DNA of 64,000 nucleotides. Origin: Fuerstiella sp. Its GTDB lineage: Bacteria; Planctomycetota; Planctomycetia; Planctomycetales; Planctomycetaceae. Each line of letters starts with the position of its first letter. Within the stretch, counting starts at the first letter, position 1. A program made the translations under genes and the position numbers. Positions 23,609 through 58,779 of the stretch are shown here, piece after piece. Where the stretch lies: NCBI GenBank assembly GCA_022843805.1, contig JALHMY010000014.1, positions 51,328 to 115,327 of the forward strand. Direction: 5' to 3'. The notes under the pieces are model-generated. The model was not told the DNA's origin and did no database searches. It worked only from the letters and a program-made list of their open reading frames with translations.

Positions 23609-26600
23609 TCACATTGGTTTCAGCTCATTCGGACCGTCGTACAGATCTTCCTGGCTCAAGCCCTTACGTTTTCGACTGAACCCTGTCGAAGATTTGCCGC
23701 GAGGCGGCAATTCGCGTGCGCCGTCTTGCGGGCTGCCGCCACGTGGCGACTTGCTATCGCTCATCGCCGCCTCGCGGGCTGGTTCCGGGCTGGGCTCAGG
23801 CGAACTCAGACAGCGGAAGCCAAGGTAGAAGTTCCGGACCACCGGGGGGCGCGCATCGCGGTAGGCAGCACGAACGTACCCGGCAGAGTCGTACCAGCTG
23901 CCGCCACGAACGACACGGAGCGAGCGGGCCGAGCGGTCCGAGCGGACCGAGCGGGCCTCACCAAACGGATTCATCACCGACTCCTTCGAATATTTGCGAG
24001 GTCCATCAAGGCACCACTCCCACACGTTGCCGAGCATGTCATACAATCCCCAGGCGTTCGGCTTTTTCTGTTTGACGTCCTGAGTGTGACCGCCACTGTT
24101 GGCGTTATACCAGGCGATGTCGTCCAGTTCCCCATAGCGGTCACCAGCGTTTCCCGCACGACAACTGTACTCCCATTCAGATTCCGTAGGAAGCCGCAGG
24201 TGCAATTCCGTGACTTGAGAGTTGATTTGGTCCACAAAAGCTGCGACTTGTTCAAAACTGACAGTTTCCACTGGACGTTGATCGCCGGGGAAATTGAACT
24301 CAGCTTTTATTCCTGACAATTTCCAAAACTGCTGAGTACAGGGCGTATCAAACATCCAGAAGCCATGTGTGAGTGTCACTGAATGCTGAGGTTGCTCTTC
24401 AATCCATGAATATTCTGGCTTGTTCACTGATCCCATCAAAAACTGTCCTGGTGGAATCCATCGAAGCCGTTGTCGGACTCCCTTGAGTTCAAACTCGGCC
24501 CACAGTCCATAACGATCGCGGCCGGAGGCGACGGCCCAGGGAGGTGGCGGTGCCAGTTCCAGTGACAGGATTTCGCAGTCCGTTTCCATTTGCATGACGC
24601 AGGTTGCGGGGAGAGAAATCCTGGTCGCCGTGGAATTGTCGCGGAGTTGAATCATTCGGGAAAAATGGGGCGCCCCAGAATCTCCGACGGAAGGAACTGG
24701 AGGGCTGGCGCCCTTCCGCTCGCCCAAAAAATTTCGGCCGCGCTGCGGCAATTCGCGTACGTCGTTTTGCGGGCTGCCGCCACGCTGCGACTTGCTCCCG
24801 CTCATCGCCGCCTCGCGGCTGGGCTCCGCTTCGGGCTCAGGAGAACTCAGACAGCGGAAACCAGGATAGCTGTACCGGTACTCCGGACGGAACGCATGGC
24901 GGTAGGCAGCACGAACGAGCCCGGCAGAGCCGTTCCAGCTGCCGCCACGGACCACAAGGGACGCGCGGATTTTACCTGATTCATACAGCGGGTCAACTTG
25001 CGAAGATTGATCATACTTGCGATAAGCGTGGTCTCGACACCATTCCCAGACATTCCCGAGCATGTCATAGAGGCCAAAGCCGTTGCATTGTTTCTGGCCG
25101 ATGTCATGTGTTGTTCCAGCACTGTTACCATCCCACCATGCGATTTCGTCCAGTTCACCGTAGCATGCTTGCGACTTGTCCTGATCGGTACCCGGTCCGC
25201 GACAGGAATACTCCCATTGGGCTTCCGTGGGCAGATGAATTCCTATCCCGGGCAACCCTCGATTAAGTGCCTCATTGAACTTCAGAGCATCGTCCCAACT
25301 GACAGATTCGACCGGCAGCCGGTCTCCTTTGAAATGACTCGGATCGGTTGCCATCACGGCGGACCAGAGTTCCTGAGTACACTGAGTTTCAAACATCCAG
25401 AACCCTCGGCTGATCTCTACCCGATGCTGTGGTCCTTCATCTTCGTAGCGCCCTTCTTCATTCTCCGGAGAACCCATCAGAAATTCACCCGGTGGAACCC
25501 ATCGAAGAATCTGTTCAACATCCTTCACCCGAAACGAACACCACGCCCCATATTCGTCCGTGCCGAAGCGATGTACCCAGGAGGGTTTCTTTCCACCGAG
25601 CCAAAACCTCGCTTCGGTAAGTGCTTCTCGTAACAGTCTTCGTTCGTGAATCCATACGACCGGCTCTGAACATCGAATGGTGACCAGCAGACTAACAACT
25701 GGGTTCGATGCCATAGGCTCGTCGCCTGGACCAGAGACCGACTGCAAGTCTGCGTGGCTTAGTACCATGTTTCCGCCTCGCTGACCGACACGTATCTCTG
25801 AGTTCGCTTGTGTGGCTGTCGGAATTGCATTGATCATCCACGGGGGAGCGTCGGAAACCTCCAAGGTTTGTGTCTTCTTCACCAGGGTCAGCATTGCCTG
25901 TGACAGCCGCTTCGGCAATGCAGAGTTCTTCGGCAACCGATGTGCACAGCGTTCGATCCATGCCAACGTTTGTGTGCTGAACTTGTCGCCCCCCAATTCT
26001 GCCAACGCACAGTAGTAGGCCTCGGCCAAATTAAACAGTTCGGCGTCCACCATGCTTCGTGAATCCTGGTCCAGGCTCACAACTTCTTCAAAGTGAACGG
26101 CCGGGTGAAGCGTCTGCCTTGCCGCCAACAAAGTCTCAAGGATTTCTCGACGCAATTTTCTGTCGAGCTTCGCAAACCTCCCGATTAGCGAATCCCGCAC
26201 CTTTGCATTGACAGCTCCGGCGACACTGTGCGGGATGTCCAGAAATGGGTGTTGCCAAACAAGCGATTCCAGTTCGGGGTTTGATTGAAATTCACGAGTC
26301 AGCAAACGCACTGCTCGAAGCAGTTGAGGCTCCAGCCGAATACAAGGTGCGAGGAACTCCAGAAGCCGATCAACTTTGAGATTTGTAGCTTCCGAACCGC
26401 TATGCTGAGTTGTCTGCTGCCAATGAATCGTCTGCCATCGCTGTTGCAACAAATCGGACAATGCATTTGTGTGTAACGGAACGAGGGCAATGGCAGGGTT
26501 TCCATTCTCGCGCAACAGATCACCAATCCGGAGCCAGACAGTTTCGTGATGCACGTTGTCACCCCGAGCCAATCCCCCTAAATCCGTTAGTGCCAATACG

Positions 26601-27367
26601 AGCGTCCCGGGAGCGGGCGGCTGCCAGTCGAGGCCGACAAGCGAAGTCGGAAAACAATACTCCGGCTGGGAGTGGCCATCGTGAAGCCGTGCAACTTCGA
26701 CACTGCATTCCGGGTAGACTTCTGTGACAATCTGCGCGACTTGATCTTCATCAAACCAATACGGAACGAGCCGCCGGGCACGATCCTGAATCACGCAGAT
26801 GTTTTGTCCCCAGACTCGGCGGTGCTTTCTGGGTACCGACCTTAGAAATTCGCCCCTGGAGATGCGATCGACGGCCTTCGGGATGTCCAACTGCGATGCT
26901 GATGATCGGGTCGGGGCAATGGCTCGCAGCTTTGTCAGCAGATAATTTCGAGCAGCAAGTGATTGTGGGGGAAGTGATTTTCCAGGATCAAACGCCGCTG
27001 CTTTCAGGATCTCAGCAGGCGAACGCCCCAGAGTAATCTGGTCCGATTCCGGCTCGCTTCCATCTTTAGCCTTCTGATCTGACAGTTTGCTGTGGAAACC
27101 GGTCACTCGCCAGTATTGAGTCGGCGCGGGTTCAAAAGTCGTCCAGCCATTCTGAGACTCACTATCCCTAAGCTGAATACCCTCTGATCCGTTGTTCGGT
27201 GGATTCTGTTCATCGGACTTTTCTTCAGTTGTCTCGGGACCTAACTCAAAGTTGAAAGCCCTCACAATCCCGGCGAACTTCTCCAGGCTGCCTGCTTCGT
27301 CTGGAAGAAGCTCAATGAGATCTGACCGCCCCACAAGTCCACGATGCTTTTGAGACAGCCTTTTCAT
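23609..27367 (-). CDS. vWA-like MoxR partner with two FGE-sulfatase domains
   Basis: A 1252-residue protein. The N-terminal 330 residues include a Rossmann-like segment (WGQNICVIQDRARRLVPYW, GTLVLALTDLGGLARGD) similar to the divergent vWA region of SAV_2336-type MoxR partners. An alpha-helical section follows. Two FGE-sulfatase domains occupy about 610-840 and 960-1190, each with LRWVPPGEFLMGS or LRWIPPGQFLMGS, LPTE-x-EWEYSCR, YDMLGNVWEWC and VVRGGSW...GFRCLSSPEP ends. A basic, Pro-rich linker follows each domain. The ATG overlaps the MoxR stop by four bases. Known systems pair MoxR with vWA proteins to control an effector; here the lectin-fold domains probably sense the trigger. The two C-terminal segments look like DGR-diversified variable regions (23815-23910, 24851-24950). 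Confidence 0.8.
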   Translation of the reverse strand: MKRLSQKHRGLVGRSDLIELLPDEAGSLEKFAGIVRAFNFELGPETTEEKSDEQNPPNNGSEGIQLRDSESQNGWTTFEPAPTQYWRVTGFHSKLSDQKAKDGSEPESDQITLGRSPAEILKAAAFDPGKSLPPQSLAARNYLLTKLRAIAPTRSSASQLDIPKAVDRISRGEFLRSVPRKHRRVWGQNICVIQDRARRLVPYWFDEDQVAQIVTEVYPECSVEVARLHDGHSQPEYCFPTSLVGLDWQPPAPGTLVLALTDLGGLARGDNVHHETVWLRIGDLLRENGNPAIALVPLHTNALSDLLQQRWQTIHWQQTTQHSGSEATNLKVDRLLEFLAPCIRLEPQLLRAVRLLTREFQSNPELESLVWQHPFLDIPHSVAGAVNAKVRDSLIGRFAKLDRKLRREILETLLAARQTLHPAVHFEEVVSLDQDSRSMVDAELFNLAEAYYCALAELGGDKFSTQTLAWIERCAHRLPKNSALPKRLSQAMLTLVKKTQTLEVSDAPPWMINAIPTATQANSEIRVGQRGGNMVLSHADLQSVSGPGDEPMASNPVVSLLVTIRCSEPVVWIHERRLLREALTEARFWLGGKKPSWVHRFGTDEYGAWCSFRVKDVEQILRWVPPGEFLMGSPENEEGRYEDEGPQHRVEISRGFWMFETQCTQELWSAVMATDPSHFKGDRLPVESVSWDDALKFNEALNRGLPGIGIHLPTEAQWEYSCRGPGTDQDKSQACYGELDEIAWWDGNSAGTTHDIGQKQCNGFGLYDMLGNVWEWCRDHAYRKYDQSSQVDPLYESGKIRASLVVRGGSWNGSAGLVRAAYRHAFRPEYRYSYPGFRCLSSPEPEAEPSREAAMSGSKSQRGGSPQNDVRELPQRGRNFLGERKGASPPVPSVGDSGAPHFSRMIQLRDNSTATRISLPATCVMQMETDCEILSLELAPPPPWAVASGRDRYGLWAEFELKGVRQRLRWIPPGQFLMGSVNKPEYSWIEEQPQHSVTLTHGFWMFDTPCTQQFWKLSGIKAEFNFPGDQRPVETVSFEQVAAFVDQINSQVTELHLRLPTESEWEYSCRAGNAGDRYGELDDIAWYNANSGGHTQDVKQKKPNAWGLYDMLGNVWEWCLDGPRKYSKESVMNPFGEARSVRSDRSARSLRVVRGGSWYDSAGYVRAAYRDARPPVVRNFYLGFRCLSSPEPSPEPAREAAMSDSKSPRGGSPQDGARELPPRGKSSTGFSRKRKGLSQEDLYDGPNELKPM
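23815..23910 (-). other. Candidate DGR variable region in the second FGE domain
   Basis: Encodes RGGSWYDSAGYVRAAYRD and the following segment up to GFRC. Compared with 24851-24950, the framework codons are nearly identical in DNA while codons in between differ at several bases (for example TAC GAC versus AAC GGC, AAC TTC TAC versus TAC AGC TAT). That is the pattern expected of AAY template codons randomised independently. No matching template was found in the window. Confidence 0.5.
24851..24950 (-). other. Candidate DGR variable region in the first FGE domain
   Basis: Encodes RGGSWNGSAGLVRAAYRH and the following segment up to GFRC. It is the partner of 23815-23910; differences fall in codon blocks separated by conserved TCTGCCGGG and GTTCGTGCTGCCTACCGC frameworks. 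Confidence 0.5.
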
Positions 27368-49190: not shown

Positions 49191-49273
49191 AAACGCGCGC
49201 GCTCCGCTGCGCGGATCGCCGCAAAAGGGTAAATCGCAAAACCGCAAACAGGAAAACAGACCGTAAACTGCTA
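49191..49273 (-). other. Conserved flank with hairpin downstream of VR1 (probable DGR target-recognition site)
   Basis: Immediately 3' of the variable region, about 80 bp match the same position after VR2 (52922-53008), including GGTCTGTTTTCCTGTTTGCG-like sequence and a GCGCGC...GCGCGC hairpin with an AGCGGA loop. DGR targets typically carry such a hairpin close to the VR end. The template copy lacks it. Confidence 0.65.
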
Positions 49274-52039
49274 CGGAGTCCTGGAAATCCGAAAACCGTT
49301 GAAGTCGCCACGCCTCTCGGGCGCTTCACCGTAGCGATCCGCCGACCGCAGATTCTGCGGAATGCAATCGACGAACGAGCCGCCCCGCAAAACACGAGAA
49401 TCGCCGACGTAAAATCGGTCCGCAGAAATCGCGATGTCGCTGGCGTACCAGGTATCGCACCACTCATACACGTTGCCTGACATCTCCATCAGCTGCCAGG
49501 GATTCGCGTGCTGTTTGCTGGCGGGAGTCGCGTGGTTCGTCCCAAACGTACATTTTGAGTCGTCCATGTCGTGACCCCACCAATAACGCGTTCTTGTTCC
49601 GGCGCGGCACGCATATTCCCATTCGATTTCGGTCGGCAAACGTGCGCCACACCATTTCGCAAAACACCATGCGTCATACCATTTGACTAAGAGGACCGGA
49701 CAGTCTGGTTCAGGACTGTAGTTCTCCAAATCATTCGCGATAGTAAAATCATGTTGATGCGTCGGGTCGTACAGCCAATACTGTGCCTTAGTCACAGGGG
49801 TGTTCGCCATGTGGAAGGGCATCACCTTCATCTGGATCTGCGGTTTCTCCTCAGAATGTGCATCCAGGTCCGTATCGGGGGAACCCATCAGAAACGTCAG
49901 GCTGTCGCGTTCGGGATTCGGCGGACAGGGGCAAAAACTGTCTTCAATCTCTCTGGCGAGCAGGTTCCCTGCAGCCAGCAGATTCGTGTATTCGGTCCGA
50001 AACACATTCAGGATCTCACAGCCGGCCGCCGAGGCTTCCATGACCTTCCATGCCCGGTAAATCAACTCGCTGGGACGACGCCCCTGAGCCGGGACACGAT
50101 AAAGGTGCGACAGTGTGGCCGTCCGAATGGTGGCGTCTGCCACGGCATCTGGCATCTCGATGGCGAATCGCCAGGCCCAGTACCAGTCAGGTACCGCTGC
50201 CAATCGGCTCGCGTCACCGATGCACTGATCGTTAGCATATCGAGCCAGCTGCAGACCGCAATAGAATTCCATCATGCCGCGGTGCTGCCAACTGAGCATC
50301 GTCTGGCTGTTGCCTTCCAGAATACAGTGGTTGGTCAGGTTCGTAACCGAACGGATCAGCGTCCATTCACGATCGCTGATACCGTTTCCGCACCGACTTG
50401 CCGCACCACGTTCAATCTGGTCAACGGTGTCGACGCCCCGGGCGGCGTATCCGTAAAGTTCCCGAGTCATCATTTCGAAGGCAACTGCCGACAGAATCTG
50501 TTCGACGCGGCGAGTCTGCCGATCATCGAAGTTTGGATCAATCATTCGACCGGAACGCAGAATCAACTGATAGCTGGCCTGCAGGTAGACCTCTCCGCGA
50601 GTGCTGAAGCTCCTGATGGTCTGGTCCTGCTCCAACAGTTCCCGCACGATCCTCAAAACGCTGGGAATGCGCAGCAGATCGCGGACATGAGTATGTTGGG
50701 GGAACAACTCATCAATATCGTACTCCGCCAGATAAGAGGCAATTTGCTCATCATTAAACCCTTCAATCCGGGCAAACCGCCATTCATCGCCCCGAAAGAG
50801 GTTTCGGCGATTGAGGTCGACCTTGTACGAACGCCCTGTGATGATGGCACGACACTTACGTCCCGCACCGCTCAAAAACACTGACACACCACGAATTACG
50901 GTATCGTTATTCACCTGATCAAGCCCATCGAGGATGAGCAGAACCCTCCCCTGAAGCAGCGCCCAAGTTACAAGGTCATCCGGAGACACCCGAGGCTCAT
51001 GTTCACCGCAATCGTCGGCAATTGCATCGGCGAGGGCGCGATGGAAGTCGGTCGGCCAGTCCTTCTCCCACTGTTCCCAACGCACTGCGAGACCAGGCTT
51101 GCCGTCGAACAGGGAATCTTGTCCCGTCCTGCTGCTGGCGAACGCCAGGGCTCGGCGTGTGAATACCGACTTCCCGGCACCGGCGTCTTCAGCCAGACAG
51201 AGCCGTCTGGAGGTCCGCAGCAGCTTTTCCAGTTCCAGTTCGGCGCTGTCACCATCCGCAGCAACAGGCTCGTACGCACTGTGCCCGTCTGCACCATTTT
51301 CCTCAATGCCCTTCCGGATGTAACCGAAGCGACTCGCCACCTGCGAAAACTGCGATTCTGGCTTCAGGAGTGAGTAGTGTGGTTCCACATAATGATCCAG
51401 ACGATCCTGCTGATCGCGCTGGCCATTCAGGCAGGACTGCCAGATTTGAGTCTGACGTGTGGCATAACGCATAAGCACGCGATCGAACAGCTGGGTTGCT
51501 GTGGGACCAGCCGAGTGGCTCACTCCAGTGTCGCGAGAACAGTACTGCAAGGCCCTGAGGACCAGTCGCTGCAGTTCATCCGTAGTCCTGAAGAACTGGC
51601 AGACCAGCCCCTGACCGTCCAGATTCATGACTTCCTGGCGGAATGCTTCCTGTTGACTGCCGTATTTATGATCGATGAAGACCGTACCCGGCAGTCCCTC
51701 GGATTTCTCGTCCAGCAGAAACACCAGCAGTGTTTTCCCGGCCTCTTTGGCAGTCCGGAATTCCTGCCGCGTGTACGACACGTCGGGCTGGTCGCGAGCT
51801 GGCATCCCGTACCGGAATCCGAGGATTCCCAGGTAGACGTCACACTCCAGCACGTGTTTGCCGTCGAGTTCCGTCGGCGTCACGGATGCCGCTGGAAAGT
51901 CTCGCATGTCCACTGCCACCATTCCGGCTTCGCGGACTGCATCGAGTGCTGCGGTGACAAAACTGCGAGACGCCGGATGTTCCGCCATTTCGCTGGTATG
52001 ACTCAGAAATACTTTCAGCGTTCTCGCTTGTCCGTTCAT
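49271..52039 (-). CDS. DUF4062-NACHT-type STAND receptor with DGR-variable FGE domain
   Basis: A 922-residue protein. N-terminal DUF4062 (about 8-165; LKVFLSHTSEMAEHPASRSF, VYLGILGFRYGMP), a TIR-like signalling head. A NACHT-type NTPase follows with Walker A LAEDAGAGKSVFTRRAL (about 286) and Walker B GRVLLILDGLDQVNND (about 366), then helical linker. An FGE-sulfatase, C-type-lectin-fold domain (about 715-922) has LTFLMGSPDTD, LPTEIEWEYACRAG, MSGNVYEWCDTWY. It ends in the variable region SRVLRGGSFVDCIPQNLRSA to the stop. The domain order effector-STAND-sensor is that of an NLR-like receptor. The final 40 residues match the template at 52253-52376 except at adenine-rich codons. Confidence 0.88.
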   Translation of the reverse strand: MNGQARTLKVFLSHTSEMAEHPASRSFVTAALDAVREAGMVAVDMRDFPAASVTPTELDGKHVLECDVYLGILGFRYGMPARDQPDVSYTRQEFRTAKEAGKTLLVFLLDEKSEGLPGTVFIDHKYGSQQEAFRQEVMNLDGQGLVCQFFRTTDELQRLVLRALQYCSRDTGVSHSAGPTATQLFDRVLMRYATRQTQIWQSCLNGQRDQQDRLDHYVEPHYSLLKPESQFSQVASRFGYIRKGIEENGADGHSAYEPVAADGDSAELELEKLLRTSRRLCLAEDAGAGKSVFTRRALAFASSRTGQDSLFDGKPGLAVRWEQWEKDWPTDFHRALADAIADDCGEHEPRVSPDDLVTWALLQGRVLLILDGLDQVNNDTVIRGVSVFLSGAGRKCRAIITGRSYKVDLNRRNLFRGDEWRFARIEGFNDEQIASYLAEYDIDELFPQHTHVRDLLRIPSVLRIVRELLEQDQTIRSFSTRGEVYLQASYQLILRSGRMIDPNFDDRQTRRVEQILSAVAFEMMTRELYGYAARGVDTVDQIERGAASRCGNGISDREWTLIRSVTNLTNHCILEGNSQTMLSWQHRGMMEFYCGLQLARYANDQCIGDASRLAAVPDWYWAWRFAIEMPDAVADATIRTATLSHLYRVPAQGRRPSELIYRAWKVMEASAAGCEILNVFRTEYTNLLAAGNLLAREIEDSFCPCPPNPERDSLTFLMGSPDTDLDAHSEEKPQIQMKVMPFHMANTPVTKAQYWLYDPTHQHDFTIANDLENYSPEPDCPVLLVKWYDAWCFAKWCGARLPTEIEWEYACRAGTRTRYWWGHDMDDSKCTFGTNHATPASKQHANPWQLMEMSGNVYEWCDTWYASDIAISADRFYVGDSRVLRGGSFVDCIPQNLRSADRYGEAPERRGDFNGFRISRTP
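49274..49402 (-). other. DGR variable region VR1
   Basis: On the minus strand it matches the template from ATTCTCGTGTTTTGCGGGG to GGTTTTCGGATTTCCAG. Framework codons (CCGCAGAATCTGCGGTCGGC, CCCGAG, GGTTTTCGG) are identical; template AAC/AAT codons are replaced by GAT, TAC, GGT, GAA, AGG, GGC, GAC, TTC. Most changes are at A; three are at a third-base C. One extra codon is present in the first block. Confidence 0.85.
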
Positions 52040-52252
52040 GAATCAGAATTACCCGCCACGTTGTTGAATCAAACATGACCCGGCAGGACGTTCGAACCTT
52101 GCGGCCTGCCAGCCCCACCGGGTCATTGTCATGTTTTGGCCGGAGAAAAAATATCGCCGACACAGGAAGGGAGACCGTGGACTGCACGCGGCACAGCTGA
52201 CGACTCCGTGAAGTCATCAATTCAGGCATATTCGCTGATCAACAGCAAAGCG

Positions 52253-52376
52253 CAGTGCTGGAAATCCGAAAACCGTTGTTGTTGTTACGGTTCTCGGGCG
52301 TGTTGTTGTTGCGATTCGCCGACCGCAGATTCTGCGGATTGTTGTTGAACGAGCCGCCCCGCAAAACACGAGAATT
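52253..52376 (-). other. DGR template repeat (TR)
   Basis: Non-coding, adenine-rich on the minus strand: blocks of AAC/AAT triplets separated by the same framework as VR1 and VR2 (CCGCAGAATCTGCGGTCGGC, CGC, ACGCCCGAG, CGT, GGTTTTCGGATTTCC). At its 3' end it reads AGCACTGCG where both VRs read AGGACTCCG, the kind of G/C difference that distinguishes IMH* from IMH. It lies between the Avd-like fragment and the DUF4062-NACHT gene. Its AAC tracts are 3 and 4 triplets in the first and last blocks, versus 4 and 4 in VR1 and 4 and 5 in VR2. Confidence 0.88.
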
Positions 52377-52619
52377 CGGTCCCCCTCCCGCAGCCAAATT
52401 TAACGCCCGGCAGCAATTTTCGCAAACTTGTAGTTGCCAAACCCTGACTCACCCGGCGTGAAGCCGGGCTGGGGTCGACATAGGCTGGCTTCCATCAGAT
52501 GAGCACTTGAGAGGTCCTTTATCGTCGTTGAACCCGGACCACACCAACCGTCGAAAGCTTTGTACTTCACACAATCGCGGTTGATTTTCTGACGCCGTTT
52601 GTTTGGTTCCAGCAATCGC

Positions 52620-52847
52620 TCAGTTCCGTGGCACCTTACAGTGCATTTCCAGAATGCCGCGTCGGTCGCGAGTGACTCTGGCTCGAATGAGTTTTTCAAG
52701 GATCTGATACTGCGGATGCTCCATCCGCTGGCCAAGTGTAAATCGATGCTCGCGGGAGAACTTGCCAATCTTCGGCGCCAGCCAGAGAATCAGTTCGTAG
52801 TACGCACGGATCACCGGCAACTCTTCCGAACGGTTTGGATCAGCCAT
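52620..52847 (-). pseudogene. avd: Truncated Avd-like DGR accessory protein
   Basis: 75 codons: MADPNRSEELPVIRAYYELI, then LWLAPKIGKFSREHRFTLG, QRMEHPQYQILEKLIRAR and TRDRRGILEMHCKVPRN. The first 65 residues match the four-helix bAvd protein that binds the DGR reverse transcriptase. Intact Avd is about 110-125 residues; here helices 3 and 4 are missing and no other frame restores them. The order VR2, avd, TR on one strand is the usual DGR layout. It is either inactive or a short variant. Confidence 0.75.
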
Positions 52848-52921
52848 GCAGACACATTTTCCTTACAAACAAATTCTTCAACGCGACGGACGCGCGAGTC
52901 GCAGTGAGATTCCTGGTTTTG

Positions 52922-53008
52922 TAATTCGCGCGCTCCGCTGCGCGAATCGCGGTAAAAGGGTAAATCGCAAAATCGCAAACAGGAAAACAGACAGAACATA
53001 AACCGCTA
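52922..53008 (-). other. Conserved flank with hairpin downstream of VR2
   Basis: Matches 49191-49273 in sequence and position: TTTTCCTGTTTGCGATTTTG, ATTTACCCTTTT, then CGCGCAGCGGAGCGCGCG hairpin. It begins right after the stop codon at 53006-53008. Confidence 0.65.
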
Positions 53009-53373
53009 CGGAGTCCTGGAAATCCGAAAACCGACGTCGTCGTAGTTACGGTACTCGGGCGTGCCGTAGCTGCGATTCGCCGACCGCAGATTCTGCGGAT
53101 CGCCGCTGACGAGCGAGCCGCCCCGCAAAACACGAGAATCGCCTTCTTCGAACTTATCCCAGCACCATTCGCACAAATTGCCATGCATATCAAACACGCC
53201 CCAGGCGTTCGGAATTTTCTGACCACACGTCTCAGCTGACTCGACACCGAAGACTGCGTAGTCTGCCAGAAGCTCCGTTTTCTCACCAAAACAATAGCCC
53301 TGTGCACTTATCGCACGACAGGCGTCCTCCCATTCGACTTCTGTGGGTAATCGGAACCCCTGCTGACAGTTTC
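53006..53373 (-). pseudogene. Frame-shifted C-terminal part of the TIR-STAND-FGE receptor
   Basis: In the frame offset from the gene at 53308, the sequence continues as GFRLPTEVEWEDACRAIS, QKIPNAWGVFDMHGNLCEWC and DSRVLRGGSLVSGDPQNL to a stop at 53006, completing the FGE-sulfatase domain and VR2. The switch is at GGAGGAAACTG (around 53366-53376); one extra G would give a continuous reading with NCQQGFRLPTE. So the receptor is either inactivated by a one-base deletion, misread in sequencing, or recoded. Confidence 0.82.
53009..53140 (-). other. DGR variable region VR2
   Basis: Same framework as TR and VR1. Template AAC codons are replaced by GTC AGC GGC, AGC TAC GGC, TAC and TAC GAC GAC GTC, all changes at A positions apart from tract-length differences and one TTC to CTC. 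It encodes the last 40 residues of the frame-shifted FGE domain. Confidence 0.85.
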
Positions 53374-56300
53374 CTCCGGTTCGACAACGGCCTTAATGAT
53401 ATGCCCCCCATTGCCTCTTTCAATCTTTTCTGAGTCGGCGAACTTGTAGAATGGTTGGAGGCCGTGTCTGACACTCAGTGCATTGCAGAACTCGATGGCG
53501 TCATACCATGAAACGAATGCCACGGGCATCCGCAGCCGGTCGGACACTTTAGAAACATTCTCGTTGGAAGTATCTCGAAATTGCGGCAGAATCAATTCAA
53601 ATTGTTCGACGGTGATTTCCCGATCTGATATCCAGATCGCGGGAAATGGTACGGATTCGTCGCTCTCGGCGGGGTCTCCAGTCCAGCCGCTGTTCTCACC
53701 TCCGCCAACGTCATCCGTTACCGAACCGATCTTAAAGTCGTGCGACGGAATCCTGATCATCGTCAAACCGGCTGAGTTCTCAAGATGCTCCCACTCAGGC
53801 TCCACTTCAAGTTGGGGGTGTTCCTGAATGAACTGCCCAAGTTCTTCTTCTGTCGCGCCCTGCTGAAGCAAAGCCCATCGGGCGGCACTATGGGTGCCGC
53901 CGTCTGCAGCCGTCTGATAAAGCTTCTTCAGGACGTTGTGGATCGCAAGCTTGCCCTCCTTGCCGAGTTTGCCTACTGCGATACACAACGCCGCACGGGC
54001 GTCAGCGATAAGCGTCTCGTTTTCCATCAAACCCGCCACCCGAACCAGGTCTCCGGGAAAATCCTTGAACCCATGAATCAACGAAGTGCGTTTCGAAGGA
54101 TCTGGCTGCAGCTTGCAAACTGCGTTGACAAGCTTCGTGAATCCCAGTTCTCCAGCCACGATCACAAAGCGGTTCTTCGCTGAATCATCCTCAGAATTTT
54201 CAATTCGGCTGTTCAACTGTTTCTGTAACTCGTCCCCGAATTCCTCCTTCATTGCCGAGAGTGCGTCGATCAGGTTTTCGCCCTCTTCCTTCGGAAGCTC
54301 AGGAATGCTGCGGATTAAGAACATTAATACGTCAGAATCGGCTGCGGAGAGCCTGACGAGTCCGTATGCCGCGTGCAGGCGGTGCGATGGTTCACGGTTC
54401 TGATCAGTGTTCGCGAACGCTTCGCGGAGCAGGGGAACTGCAAGGGCTGGAGACCGGCTCAGTTCATCAAGATAGGAGTGCACGCGGCCCGCTCTTGTTT
54501 CCAGGAGCGATTCTACCAGGCCTTCGACACGGATATTGAGATTCGCTCTATCCCAGGCGTATCCTAGACCCAAGAATAACGCTGACAATAAGCTGGCGAT
54601 GATCCACACTCGCCGACGCTGTTTGTGCAGGGCGTCAAGGCTCGCATTGATGAAGGCGCACTCAGGTCTATCAAGTTCGTTCGATCGAGACGGAAAGAAT
54701 TCCTGTGCATCACGAAGCTGATTTCCTCTCAGCAATGGCGGATCGGGATCTTGTTTGAATCCTTCCAAAAGTGGTTGCAGGCGACTTCGCCACTGCAGGA
54801 ATTTGCGATCCTTATCGACCCAGTGCTTCAGCCGTTCCCATCGCCTCAGGAGTTCCTCATGTGCGACTTCAACCGTCTCACGTTCAGACTCCTCATTAAG
54901 GACTTCGGTCCCAGCAGACTCGATTCTTGTCGTGACCAATAGTCGTTCGTCTGCCAGATTCCGGGCGACCCGTTGCGAAGTGTCGCCAAGTCTGTGCAGA
55001 CTCAGCCGTCGACGTGTGTCCTCTTCAGTCTTCGCCCCAGCCTGGACCAGGTTTCGAAACAGCATCTCTGCAGCCGCTTGTTCGTCAGCACTCAGTGTTA
55101 AAAACACGGTCTCAGCCCGTGTCGCAATGGCACCTTTCAGACCCTTCATCCCCCCATAGGCGTCGTGTGTCAACTGGCCGTCGCCACGACGACACTTCCA
55201 GAGATCTTCCAGTACAAATTCCAGCAGAGGCAAACTTCCCGGTTCGTCGCCGGCATCGTCGAGAATGCGATCAATGAGTCCGTCCTGAAACGTCAGCCCC
55301 ATTTTGCTGGCGGGTCCTTCAATCGCACTGCGTTGTTCTTTCCGATCCATCGGTCCCAGATCGAGCCGACTGTGGTCCAGCCTGTCCAGCAATGGTCGAT
55401 TCTGCAGGATCTTTCCATAGAAATCCCATCGAACCGCAAGCACGACCGAAAGCGGGGAATTGGCCCGTGAGGTCGCCTCCAGCAGTTCCTGAATAAAACG
55501 ATTCCGCTGAACATCGTTCCTGCAGGTTGTGTAGAGTTCTTCCCACTGATCCACAAACAGCAACAGTCGGTCAGTGCCTTTCTGCTGCCGCAGACCTTCA
55601 GTCACCATGTCCCACAACGGAACCCGGCCCTGTTCCAGATCGTCCGCCAGGGCTTTGCGTTTTCGGATCAGATCAATGCCCGACAATTCAGGTTCCACGA
55701 GTGGCAGGATCACATCGGCCAGCGAGTGCAGCGGATTCTCTCGGGGAAACATCGTCAGGATATCCCACACGGGCCCCTGACCACGTTTTCGCAACTGAGG
55801 AATCAGCCCGGCTCTGACCACCGAAGACTTTCCACTGCCAGAGGCACCGGTGACCGCCACAATAGATGACTTCTCAATCAGTTTCACAAGATCGTTTGTG
55901 TATTTTTGACGACCAAAGAAGAACTCGGCGTCCTCTTCGCGAAAGGCCAGCAGCCCGCGATATGGACAGATCATAGCCCGTGGTTCGGGCCTGCCCTCCC
56001 GATTCACTGCTTCACCCCTGATGGCGGCAGCCAGGGCGTCAAGCTGTTCTGAGTCTGCGGGATCCTTCCGCAGGTCGATCCACATCAGCTGTTTCATGAA
56101 CCCCAGTGGTGGCTCACAACCCGGAAGCAGCACCGGGATCACTGGAAAATCATTTCTGCCGGCCAGCTGATCCAATGCCCAGGCACGCTCCCGCTGCTGC
56201 CAGCGACCCATCTCGCCCGGTCCAACGAACATTGCCACAGATCGGCTGGTTGAAAGCGCTCGTTCGAGTGCCTCGACCCAGTCTCGCCCCGGCTGCAGAT

Positions 56301-56421
56301 ACCAGCGATCTACGAAACATCTGCACTGCCGGTTACCGAGTTCTTTGGCCACTCGCTCCACGATGGCGTGGTCCCGCGAGTTGTAGCTGAGAAATGCGTC
56401 ATAGGTTGAGGTGACTGGCAT
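53308..56421 (-). CDS. TIR-nSTAND1 receptor with HEAT-like repeats and FGE start (frameshifted)
   Basis: 1037 residues before the premature stop. TIR at about 5-130 (YDAFLSYNSRDHAIVERVAK, GRWQQRERAWALDQL with the Glu at the catalytic position). CPYRGLLAFREEDAEFFFGR introduces the nSTAND1 NTPase: Walker A VTGASGSGKSSVVRAG (about 192), Walker B LLLFVDQWEELYT (about 287). One membrane helix (WIIASLLSALFLGLGYAW, about 607) is followed by HEAT-like helical repeats (640-890), then the start of an FGE-sulfatase domain (LTMIRIPSHDFKIGSV, VAFVSWYDAIEFCNAL). The frame then breaks; the rest, with VR2, lies at 53006-53373. Full length would be about 1135 residues. A membrane-linked NLR-like immune receptor with a hypermutable sensor is the best reading. 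Confidence 0.85.
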   Translation of the reverse strand: MPVTSTYDAFLSYNSRDHAIVERVAKELGNRQCRCFVDRWYLQPGRDWVEALERALSTSRSVAMFVGPGEMGRWQQRERAWALDQLAGRNDFPVIPVLLPGCEPPLGFMKQLMWIDLRKDPADSEQLDALAAAIRGEAVNREGRPEPRAMICPYRGLLAFREEDAEFFFGRQKYTNDLVKLIEKSSIVAVTGASGSGKSSVVRAGLIPQLRKRGQGPVWDILTMFPRENPLHSLADVILPLVEPELSGIDLIRKRKALADDLEQGRVPLWDMVTEGLRQQKGTDRLLLFVDQWEELYTTCRNDVQRNRFIQELLEATSRANSPLSVVLAVRWDFYGKILQNRPLLDRLDHSRLDLGPMDRKEQRSAIEGPASKMGLTFQDGLIDRILDDAGDEPGSLPLLEFVLEDLWKCRRGDGQLTHDAYGGMKGLKGAIATRAETVFLTLSADEQAAAEMLFRNLVQAGAKTEEDTRRRLSLHRLGDTSQRVARNLADERLLVTTRIESAGTEVLNEESERETVEVAHEELLRRWERLKHWVDKDRKFLQWRSRLQPLLEGFKQDPDPPLLRGNQLRDAQEFFPSRSNELDRPECAFINASLDALHKQRRRVWIIASLLSALFLGLGYAWDRANLNIRVEGLVESLLETRAGRVHSYLDELSRSPALAVPLLREAFANTDQNREPSHRLHAAYGLVRLSAADSDVLMFLIRSIPELPKEEGENLIDALSAMKEEFGDELQKQLNSRIENSEDDSAKNRFVIVAGELGFTKLVNAVCKLQPDPSKRTSLIHGFKDFPGDLVRVAGLMENETLIADARAALCIAVGKLGKEGKLAIHNVLKKLYQTAADGGTHSAARWALLQQGATEEELGQFIQEHPQLEVEPEWEHLENSAGLTMIRIPSHDFKIGSVTDDVGGGENSGWTGDPAESDESVPFPAIWISDREITVEQFELILPQFRDTSNENVSKVSDRLRMPVAFVSWYDAIEFCNALSVRHGLQPFYKFADSEKIERGNGGHIIKAVVEPEETVSRGSDYPQKSNGRTPVVR

Positions 56422-57447: not shown

Positions 57448-58728
57448 TCACTGAGCCGTCCCGAAGTCGATGTAGAATCGGCCGCCCACTTCTTTTAACT
57501 GGCGGCCGAAGTTGCCGTAGTCCTTCAGGAGATTGACGATCTGCCGGAGGGCTGTCGCGCCAGACGAGACGTCATTTTCCACAGTGTTCGGAAGATTCAG
57601 CTTTTGACGCTGCTCGGCGATCATCGGATGCGTGATAAATTTAATCCTCTGGTCTCGAATCTGAACATATGATGCGGCGTTGTCTGCCGAATGGGCTTTA
57701 AGCTCGTCAAGCGCGATCAGTATTTCCATAAAGCGCGATCGAGGCCCTTTGTCATCGTCGATCAGAAACTCTTCGAACTGATCGATCGGAAGCACGACAG
57801 TGGCGTCTTTCCTGCCAGAGCTGATAACCAAATCGCTGAGGACTGACATAAAGGCACTGGCGACCTGTTTAATGTCAGGATCAAGCAGCTGCTGCAGAAG
57901 CTGTTCCCGTTTTGCCGCCAGACCGACGTGTCCCATGCCGCTGGACTCATAGCAGGCAAGAATGTTGCTGATCAGAGCAGTGAAGAGCGAATCGTCGTGA
58001 TCCCGCAAGCCATATCGCAAACAATCCAGCACCAGCCATTCCGAGCGAAACGCTGAATGGCTCAGGCGAGGCAGAACTCCGGCCATTAACAGTGATGATT
58101 TCCCGCTGCCCGATCCGCCAACCACCAGAAGCAGTCGAGGCTCCCCACACCTGCGCATCTGCCGCAATTGCTCCAAAAGAGCGGCCGTCTCCTCTTCGCG
58201 GCCGAAGAACACAGGGGCGTACCGTGCGTCGAACGCCATCAGACCGGGATAAGGGCAAGCGTCGATCGTGCCATCGGCCAGATTTTTCAGTTGGGGATTC
58301 GGCCATGGCAAATGATCTGTCGGACTCAAGCCCTGGGCCTTCAGATCATCAAACAACCGCTGGAAAGCAGCCTCGACGTCCGGCCCGCCTGCCCGATGAA
58401 TAAAAATTGCCTGATATTCGGCCACCGTGCTTCGGTCACATTCGTCAATCACAATCGGGAAAATCTGTTTCCCGGCCATCTTGGCGGCAGTCAGTTCTGC
58501 AAAGCACCATCTGGACTGAAACCAGTTGGGCGAGCACAGCACGAGCATTGCGTGCGAGTCTCTCAGGTGGTCATAGATGGCGCGTTCCCATTTCTCCCCC
58601 AGCCGAATTCCTGACCGCTGGTCGCTGTCCAGAAATTGCTGCTCGCAGGAATAACCGCGGTCCCTGAGTCGCTGCTGCAGATCAAGGGCTGCCGCTTTGT
58701 CTTCTGTGCTGTGGCTGATGAATAGCAT
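57448..58728 (-). CDS. Short TIR-nSTAND1 protein, probably truncated
   Basis: A 426-residue protein. The ATG at 58728 gives MLFISHSTEDKAAALDLQQR, a TIR domain to about 130 with VLCSPNWFQSRWCFAELTAA (catalytic-position Glu in WCFAE). CPYPGLMAFDARYAPVFFGR leads into an nSTAND1 NTPase with Walker A LLVVGGSGSGKSSLLMAG (about 211) and VVLPIDQFEEFLID (about 311). The protein ends soon after the NTPase core, whereas relatives continue for several hundred residues with sensor repeats. The last 70 residues (THPMIAEQRQKLNLP, GGRFYIDFGTAQ) are unlike the usual continuation, suggesting a recombination or lost 3' end. It may still act as a regulator or TIR effector. Confidence 0.8.
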   Translation of the reverse strand: MLFISHSTEDKAAALDLQQRLRDRGYSCEQQFLDSDQRSGIRLGEKWERAIYDHLRDSHAMLVLCSPNWFQSRWCFAELTAAKMAGKQIFPIVIDECDRSTVAEYQAIFIHRAGGPDVEAAFQRLFDDLKAQGLSPTDHLPWPNPQLKNLADGTIDACPYPGLMAFDARYAPVFFGREEETAALLEQLRQMRRCGEPRLLLVVGGSGSGKSSLLMAGVLPRLSHSAFRSEWLVLDCLRYGLRDHDDSLFTALISNILACYESSGMGHVGLAAKREQLLQQLLDPDIKQVASAFMSVLSDLVISSGRKDATVVLPIDQFEEFLIDDDKGPRSRFMEILIALDELKAHSADNAASYVQIRDQRIKFITHPMIAEQRQKLNLPNTVENDVSSGATALRQIVNLLKDYGNFGRQLKEVGGRFYIDFGTAQ

Positions 58729-58779
58729 GCTTCTGCAATCTCGCCTCCGGAAGAAAATGCAAACATCCCACGACGCCAT

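Follow-up and report, generated by a model that had tools for sequence, protein, structure and literature searches.

Does a diversity-generating retroelement (DGR) still rewrite immune-receptor genes in this Fuerstiella sp. genome, or has the writing come to an end? The locus that raises this question lies on the minus strand of a 64,000-nucleotide stretch of DNA (hereafter the window), the final 64 kb of a 115-kb contig in a 9.2-Mb assembly that consists of 172 contigs and is rated 100% complete; all results come from this one assembly. A reading of the window made from its letters only (the sequence-only reading) had proposed that a template repeat (TR) was copied with adenine-biased changes into two variable regions, VR1 and VR2, at the ends of two receptor genes, and that these regions would be a rapidly evolving sensor. 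Per-base counts in both variable regions (VRs) bear out the template and the adenine-biased writing into two target genes. The locus as a whole is likely a decayed DGR that wrote the tips of two predicted STAND receptors, with its rewriting likely stopped and the receptors likely frozen.

Adenine-biased differences between template and variable regions

The TR, VR1 and VR2 share one common framework rich in AAC and AAT codons, all on the minus strand, in agreement with the sequence-only reading. In the TR/VR alignment 117 template bases were compared, of which 32 are adenine and 85 other bases. VR2 differs from the TR at 15 of the 32 adenines and at a single one of the 85 other bases (T to C; Fisher p 2.4e-9), and thus the earlier statement that VR2 changes are almost restricted to adenines holds. 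For VR1, 17 of 32 adenines and 4 of 85 other bases were changed (Fisher p 1.5e-8), or 18 and 3 with the most favourable gap placement. Expressed as the share of changes that fall on adenine, the values are 15/16 for VR2 and 17/21 for VR1. In the reverse view, none of the 17 adenines of VR2 differs from the TR. The substitutions at template adenines were A to G and A to T, and A to C was absent in both VRs. This count by template base, which had been suggested as a check, indicates that the TR/VR pattern is the product of DGR writing, and the adenine bias rules out ordinary FGE repeats as its source.

When the whole genome was searched with the TR, the matches were the TR itself, VR2 (84%), VR1 (82%), one 68% match (E 0.003) and 16 short matches (E >= 0.3). 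Several relatives, among them G136 and G118, have TRs that are 80-88% identical to that of the window. For comparison, the same count was made on ten TR/VR pairs of relatives, each 96-99 bases long, with a reverse transcriptase (RT) present in the examined sequence for all except the L062 pair. Between 12 and 20 adenines were changed per pair, and the non-adenine changes numbered 0, 0, 0, 0, 1, 6, 0, 0 and 0, 1. Judged by these pairs, VR2 would be as fresh as VRs adjacent to an RT and VR1 perhaps slightly older. The window also contains a 1252-aa gene (23609-27367, minus strand) with two FGE-like stretches ending in GFRC, as read by eye; one VR-like stretch in it differs from the TR at 21 of 29 adenines and 26 of 67 other bases, without adenine bias.

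The TR is shorter than VR1 by one codon and than VR2 by two, within the AAC runs: the first and last runs contain 3 and 4 AAC/AAT codons in the TR, 4 and 4 in VR1, and 4 and 5 in VR2. Since the TR is shorter than both VRs, the present TR is not the letter-for-letter template of the last writing. Slippage within the runs of triplets, either at the time of writing or later, would account for the mismatch. In relatives, TR and VR were of equal length in 11 of 12 pairs; the exception is the second VR of the RT-bearing contig G130:C202, one codon shorter than its TR, which weakens the length mismatch as proof of a dead TR.

The same codons vary between species. An alignment was made of ten sequences, the VR1 host and nine homologues 62-76% identical; a further homologue, P0009, ends before the VR and was dropped. 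At 15 codons that are AAC or AAT in the template, one of which falls in the template's gap, mean pairwise identity was 0.105; it was 0.83 at 25 other codons of the VR and 0.68 over the remainder of the protein. The hypervariable codons are thus those with AAC or AAT in the template. At the position of the template CAG codon the residues Q, L and R were found, and at that of ATT the residues I, F, L and V, both sets being reachable by changing the A of the template codon. Against one 77% identical orthologue, the non-synonymous and synonymous rates (dN/dS) were 0.148/1.13 before the VR and 0.268/0.281 inside it; the low dS in the VR of this one pair would fit overwriting from similar templates. 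The VR1 protein corresponds to one member sequence that is listed in five contigs, possibly from one sample.

Receptor genes carrying the variable regions

The sequence-only reading had described both hosts as STAND receptors with TIR-like heads, and this description was supported: Pfam identified DUF4062-NACHT in the VR1 host and TIR_2-nSTAND1 in the VR2 host, and both genes have the STAND layout of effector head, STAND NTPase and C-terminal sensor, spread over two frames for TIR_2-nSTAND1-FGE. A Pfam FGE-sulfatase domain (FGE, formylglycine-generating enzyme) lies at the C-terminal end of each host and carries the VR, as expected for DGR targets, so that the proposed C-type-lectin-type ends were also found, with additional support from PDB sequence and fold matches for the VR1 host. 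The further claim that the same framework ends two genes is correct for both FGE ends, but the VR2 gene is not one open frame.

In the VR1 host, DUF4062 was detected at E 2.5e-12 and the Walker A motif reads GAGKS. Glu 93, assumed to be the catalytic Glu of DUF4062, is kept in 16 of the 16 homologues that have this domain. The model of the whole protein has a mean predicted local distance difference test score (pLDDT) of 78, with values of 33-47 just before the VR and 49-82 inside it, and this predicted structure matches formylglycine-generating enzymes and NLRP3/NLRC4. By sequence, the FGE domain matched 29 distinct PDB sequences. These include Treponema denticola variable protein 1 (2y3c, E 2.1e-8), which we take to be a DGR target with the C-type lectin (CLec) fold and the chain of which presumably lacks STAND and TIR parts. 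The homologues P0013 and P0016 have the same NACHT-FGE body, with a trypsin-like protease head (PF13365) instead of DUF4062; on domain assignments, this is head swapping on a common sensor.

The frame of the VR2 host is broken at about 53359-53410, and four homologues (P0034-P0037) span both pieces. A run of G at 53404-53409 is a candidate for programmed frameshifting; P0034 and P0037 align past it in the first frame, and P0035 and P0036 end before it. When the end piece was used as query, five proteins were returned, and no strain variant of this piece was among them.

Loss of the avd end and the RT at the locus

The closest intact cassette, contig C67 of the relative G136 (locus L095), has the order FGE target, avd, 389-aa RT and TR. 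It resembles the window in its FGE target, its avd, its TR (88% identical) and in homology that continues beyond the TR. It differs in having a complete avd and the RT between avd and TR. The avd of the window matches positions 1-58 of the 104 of profile NF033474 (40.9 bits, E 2e-10; curated cut-off 80) and the bAvd profile at 21.5 bits (cut-off 40), so that the accessory gene at this locus is only partial and scores below the cut-off. Residues 21-84 of the G136 Avd match window positions 52838-52647. There the homology stops, and DNA homology to the cassette restarts at 52402, extending over 323 bases at 80% identity through and beyond the TR. The unmatched stretch between avd and TR is about 230-245 bp long. 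The reading frame of the G136 RT extends into the TR of that cassette, and the match to the end of this RT (Table) therefore falls largely within the TR of the window; in tblastn on the window, the G136 RT also weakly matches VR2. Compared with G136, the avd end and almost the entire RT are thus missing here. Neither the avd fragment nor the lack of an RT had been pointed out in the sequence-only reading.

The unmatched stretch contains a dispersed repeat. For this repeat 40 of 51 candidates were scored, which gave at least 26 further matches (E <= 0.01) in the genome, and a repeat-linked deletion may have caused the loss. A piece of a group II intron was ruled out as the origin of the stretch, which has no match to the intron contig C167.

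Table. Features of the DGR locus, in window coordinates.
Feature	Position	Strand	Basis or remark
Locus order	TIR-nSTAND1-FGE gene 56421->53006, avd fragment 52847-52620, TR 52376-52253, DUF4062-NACHT-FGE gene 52039-49271	-	
VR2 host, front part (TIR_2, nSTAND1, FGE start; 1037 aa)	53308..56421	-	Pfam
VR2 host, FGE end part with VR2, other frame	53006..53392	-	Pfam FGE-sulfatase positions 107-253 of 255
VR2, 3' end of TIR-nSTAND1-FGE gene	53009..53140	-	Adenine counts
Inverted repeat, 8-bp stem, about 60 nt past VR2 stop; candidate homing-site hairpin	52924..52947	-	Reached by 17/2000 shuffles
avd fragment, 75 aa + stop	52620..52847	-	NF033474 and bAvd profiles, G136 Avd homology
Replacement sequence where G136 has avd end and RT	52402..52647	-	Without homology to G136 cassette
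Dispersed repeat, 49 bp	52429-52477	-	Repeat matches across own genome
Stretch matching G136 RT residues 341-389	52288..52434	-	tblastn E 7.7e-11; E 2.2e-9 in genome search
TR	52253..52376	-	AAC/AAT-rich, outside any long open frame; alignment and base counts
VR1 host, intact DUF4062-NACHT-FGE receptor gene (922 aa)	49271..52039	-	Pfam, all above cut-offs; structure matches
VR1, 3' end of DUF4062-NACHT-FGE gene	49274..49402	-	Adenine counts
Inverted repeat, 5-bp stem, equivalent position past VR1 stop	49196..49213	-	Reached by 1080/2000 shuffles; alone no better than chance

Search for a DGR-type RT in the genome and in relatives

Four RT matches were obtained in the own genome with PF00078. 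One has a group II maturase domain (best NCBIfam match group_II_RT_mat, 297 bits, cut-off 300), two are retron-like (best match retron_St85_RT, 176 and 212 bits, cut-off 235), and the fourth is a weak PF00078 match within a 1065-aa frame. The DGR-RT motif GxPxGNxTSQ is absent from all four RT genes found in the assembly, which thus offer no candidate for an RT encoded elsewhere in the genome. With the G136 RT as query (up to E 10), five matches were obtained in the own genome, namely the intron RT, the TR stretch, the fourth RT (E 7e-6), the VR2 region and one at E 1, and no DGR-type RT was found among them. Since a DGR-type RT was found neither at the locus nor among the four RT genes, the locus was filed as a remnant and not as a functional DGR; with avd cut short as well, rewriting has likely stopped. 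Together with the frame break of the VR2 gene, these results do not support the view of the sequence-only reading that the sensor is rapidly evolving now.

A second DGR remnant was detected in the same genome, on contig C140 (G000:C140, L027 7064-14918). It contains a gene of 2208 aa with a kinase-like start, an FGE-like end (read by eye) and a terminal VR-like stretch, followed by an avd match and then by repeats. This avd match is full length (100 of 104 positions, 87 bits, cut-off 80), and no RT match was found on the contig. A genome search at E <= 0.01 for a TR corresponding to the C140 VR gave only the VR itself, the TR of the window (68%) and a 25-base piece of VR1.

Among 30 RT loci of relatives, the motif GxPxGNxTSQ is present in 16, of which 14 share a contig with an avd match; one of the others has a motif variant (L085), two have no readable motif and the rest resemble other RT types. 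Of 23 avd loci of relatives, 18 gave an RT match in tblastn with the G136 RT; one of these matches is partial (G133), and another is the source of the query itself (G136). Four of the five avd loci without an RT match are within 660 bp of the end of their contig, the exception being that of G071. Six further loci with weak NF033474 matches were left out, having neither an Avd nor an RT match. At L047 (G133:C217), RT residues 109-181 only were detected, directly behind avd, and at L054 (G071:C420) avd is split into two pieces, without an RT within 1.5 kb; the DGRs of G071 and G133 look decayed too. RT loss is therefore uncommon in this family, yet not unique. In G130 an orthologous receptor pair (L061 2173-5195, G130:C201) stands 128 bp apart, with TR, avd and RT absent between the genes, and the three TRs read in G130 carry other frameworks; a further match lies on G130:C34.

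Alternative explanations

Several observations weigh against a DGR that has stopped. The frame break of the VR2 gene could be an assembly error, and among 172 contigs the RT could sit in an assembly gap. VR2 shows the same cleanness as VRs next to an RT (1 of 85 non-adenine bases changed, against 0 to 6 of 66-69 in relatives), which indicates that its writing is recent or still ongoing in trans, and DGR loci without an RT are described in PMC10907252 as still diversified in nature. A DGR working in trans, with RT and Avd encoded in an assembly gap, on a plasmid or on a mobile element and copying the TR into VR1 and VR2, would fit this cleanness and the full-length avd match on C140, and in PMC10907252 such action is inferred for Thiohalocapsa DGR 4 and 5. 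We consider it unlikely, since none of the four PF00078 matches of a genome rated 100% complete has the DGR motif, the G136 RT query finds no DGR-type RT, and the TR and both VRs differ in length.

A mixture of strains or an assembly artefact, with avd and RT kept in other cells and the RT-less sequence representing a single variant or an assembly mistake, is also unlikely. The fragmented state of the assembly allows for it, and PMC10907252 reports intact and broken DGR variants coexisting in single aggregates; yet the RT-replacing stretch is inside a 115-kb contig with avd, repeat and TR contiguous and without a gap, and the second locus, on another contig, also lacks an RT. The notion that no DGR was ever involved, the locus being ordinary FGE domains plus a degenerate FGE copy in which an AAC-rich stretch arose by chance, is very improbable: FGE domains without a TR do exist, as in the 1252-aa gene of the window, but the adenine bias in both VRs, the adjoining avd and the homologous cassettes with RT and TR speak against it. 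A decayed DGR is thus the preferred reading of the locus.

Inverted repeats and neighbouring genes

A hairpin- or cruciform-forming repeat downstream of the VR is given as a requirement of DGRs in PMC3240598. Inverted repeats follow both VRs of the window (Table), and the sequence flanking the VR1 stem can be aligned with that behind VR2. Among nine stretches, however, only those behind VR2 and the L062 VR (9 of 2000 shuffles) clearly beat the shuffles; for the others the stem was reached by 600 and 362 (L061), 879 and 184 (G136), 489 (C159) and 956 (after the TR) of 2000 shuffles, in addition to the VR1 value. A conserved hairpin was therefore rejected as proof of a homing site.

A third TIR-nSTAND1 gene (57448-58779, minus strand, 443 aa) adjoins the locus. 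It covers only positions 1-175 of the 379 of the nSTAND1 profile, is without FGE and looks truncated. PADLOC gave TIR-type matches for this third gene, weak matches for the VR2 host and none for the VR1 host. In an Rfam scan of the whole window, no match reached the gathering scores.

Comparison with known systems

DGRs with two STAND/FGE targets, TIR heads, repeats resembling miniature inverted-repeat transposable elements in place of RT genes, and diversification in trans have already been described (PMC10907252). The window resembles Thiohalocapsa PB-PSB1 DGR 3 and 6 of that account (clade 5D, of multicellular bacteria; putative antigen sensors) in its two targets, its central STAND NTPase and its C-terminal VR-bearing CLec/FGE domain, and in that DGR clade TIR heads are known and the RT has been lost to repeats at some loci. 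In contrast, PB-PSB1 retains other DGR RTs, and none was found in the genome of the window.

According to a preprint (PMC13174449), DUF4062 acts as a TIR-like NADase, both in phage defence and in the protein TEP1, and stands beside NACHT in four human proteins; for a Klebsiella DUF4062 protein, both NAD+ hydrolysis and phage defence need the active-site Glu. The VR1 host resembles these NADases (bacterial Swarozyc; human TEP1, NWD1 and NPHP3) in its DUF4062 head, in the position of this head next to NACHT, as in the human proteins, and in its kept Glu. It differs in having a C-terminal FGE/CLec sensor apparently written by a DGR, and its own NADase activity is predicted. No papers naming both diversity-generating retroelement and DUF4062 were found, most subscription journals being outside the search. 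The kind of locus is therefore already known; what is new is that one target has a DUF4062 head and that the genome apparently lacks any DGR RT.

Course of events and implications

In the ancestor, a DGR RT together with Avd would have copied the TR RNA, misreading adenines, and the cDNA would have replaced the 3' ends of both receptor genes, altering the sensor tip of C-type-lectin fold. A deletion, with gain of the repeat-bearing sequence, may then have removed the avd end and the RT. The DUF4062-NACHT-FGE receptor has likely been retained as a sensor that no longer changes, and its NADase-like head would act upon binding of the trigger. Unless an assembly error produced its frame break, the TIR-nSTAND1 gene is probably a pseudogene. 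As a tentative extension, we propose write-then-lock immunity, in which a hypermutation cassette first adjusted the sensor tips of receptors armed with an NADase and was later lost from both of its loci in this genome, so that the written receptors would now be fixed and passed on in the manner of germline immune genes.

Surveys for DGRs that take the RT as their starting point may overlook loci such as this one. The locus connects DGR diversification with DUF4062, a head domain recently described as an NADase and also present in the human vault protein TEP1. Should the RT be truly gone, the genome represents a natural stop-frame of a hypermutation system, in which the template, both of its written copies and an intact receptor persist, and it makes testable whether DGR-written sensors stay useful once the writing ends.

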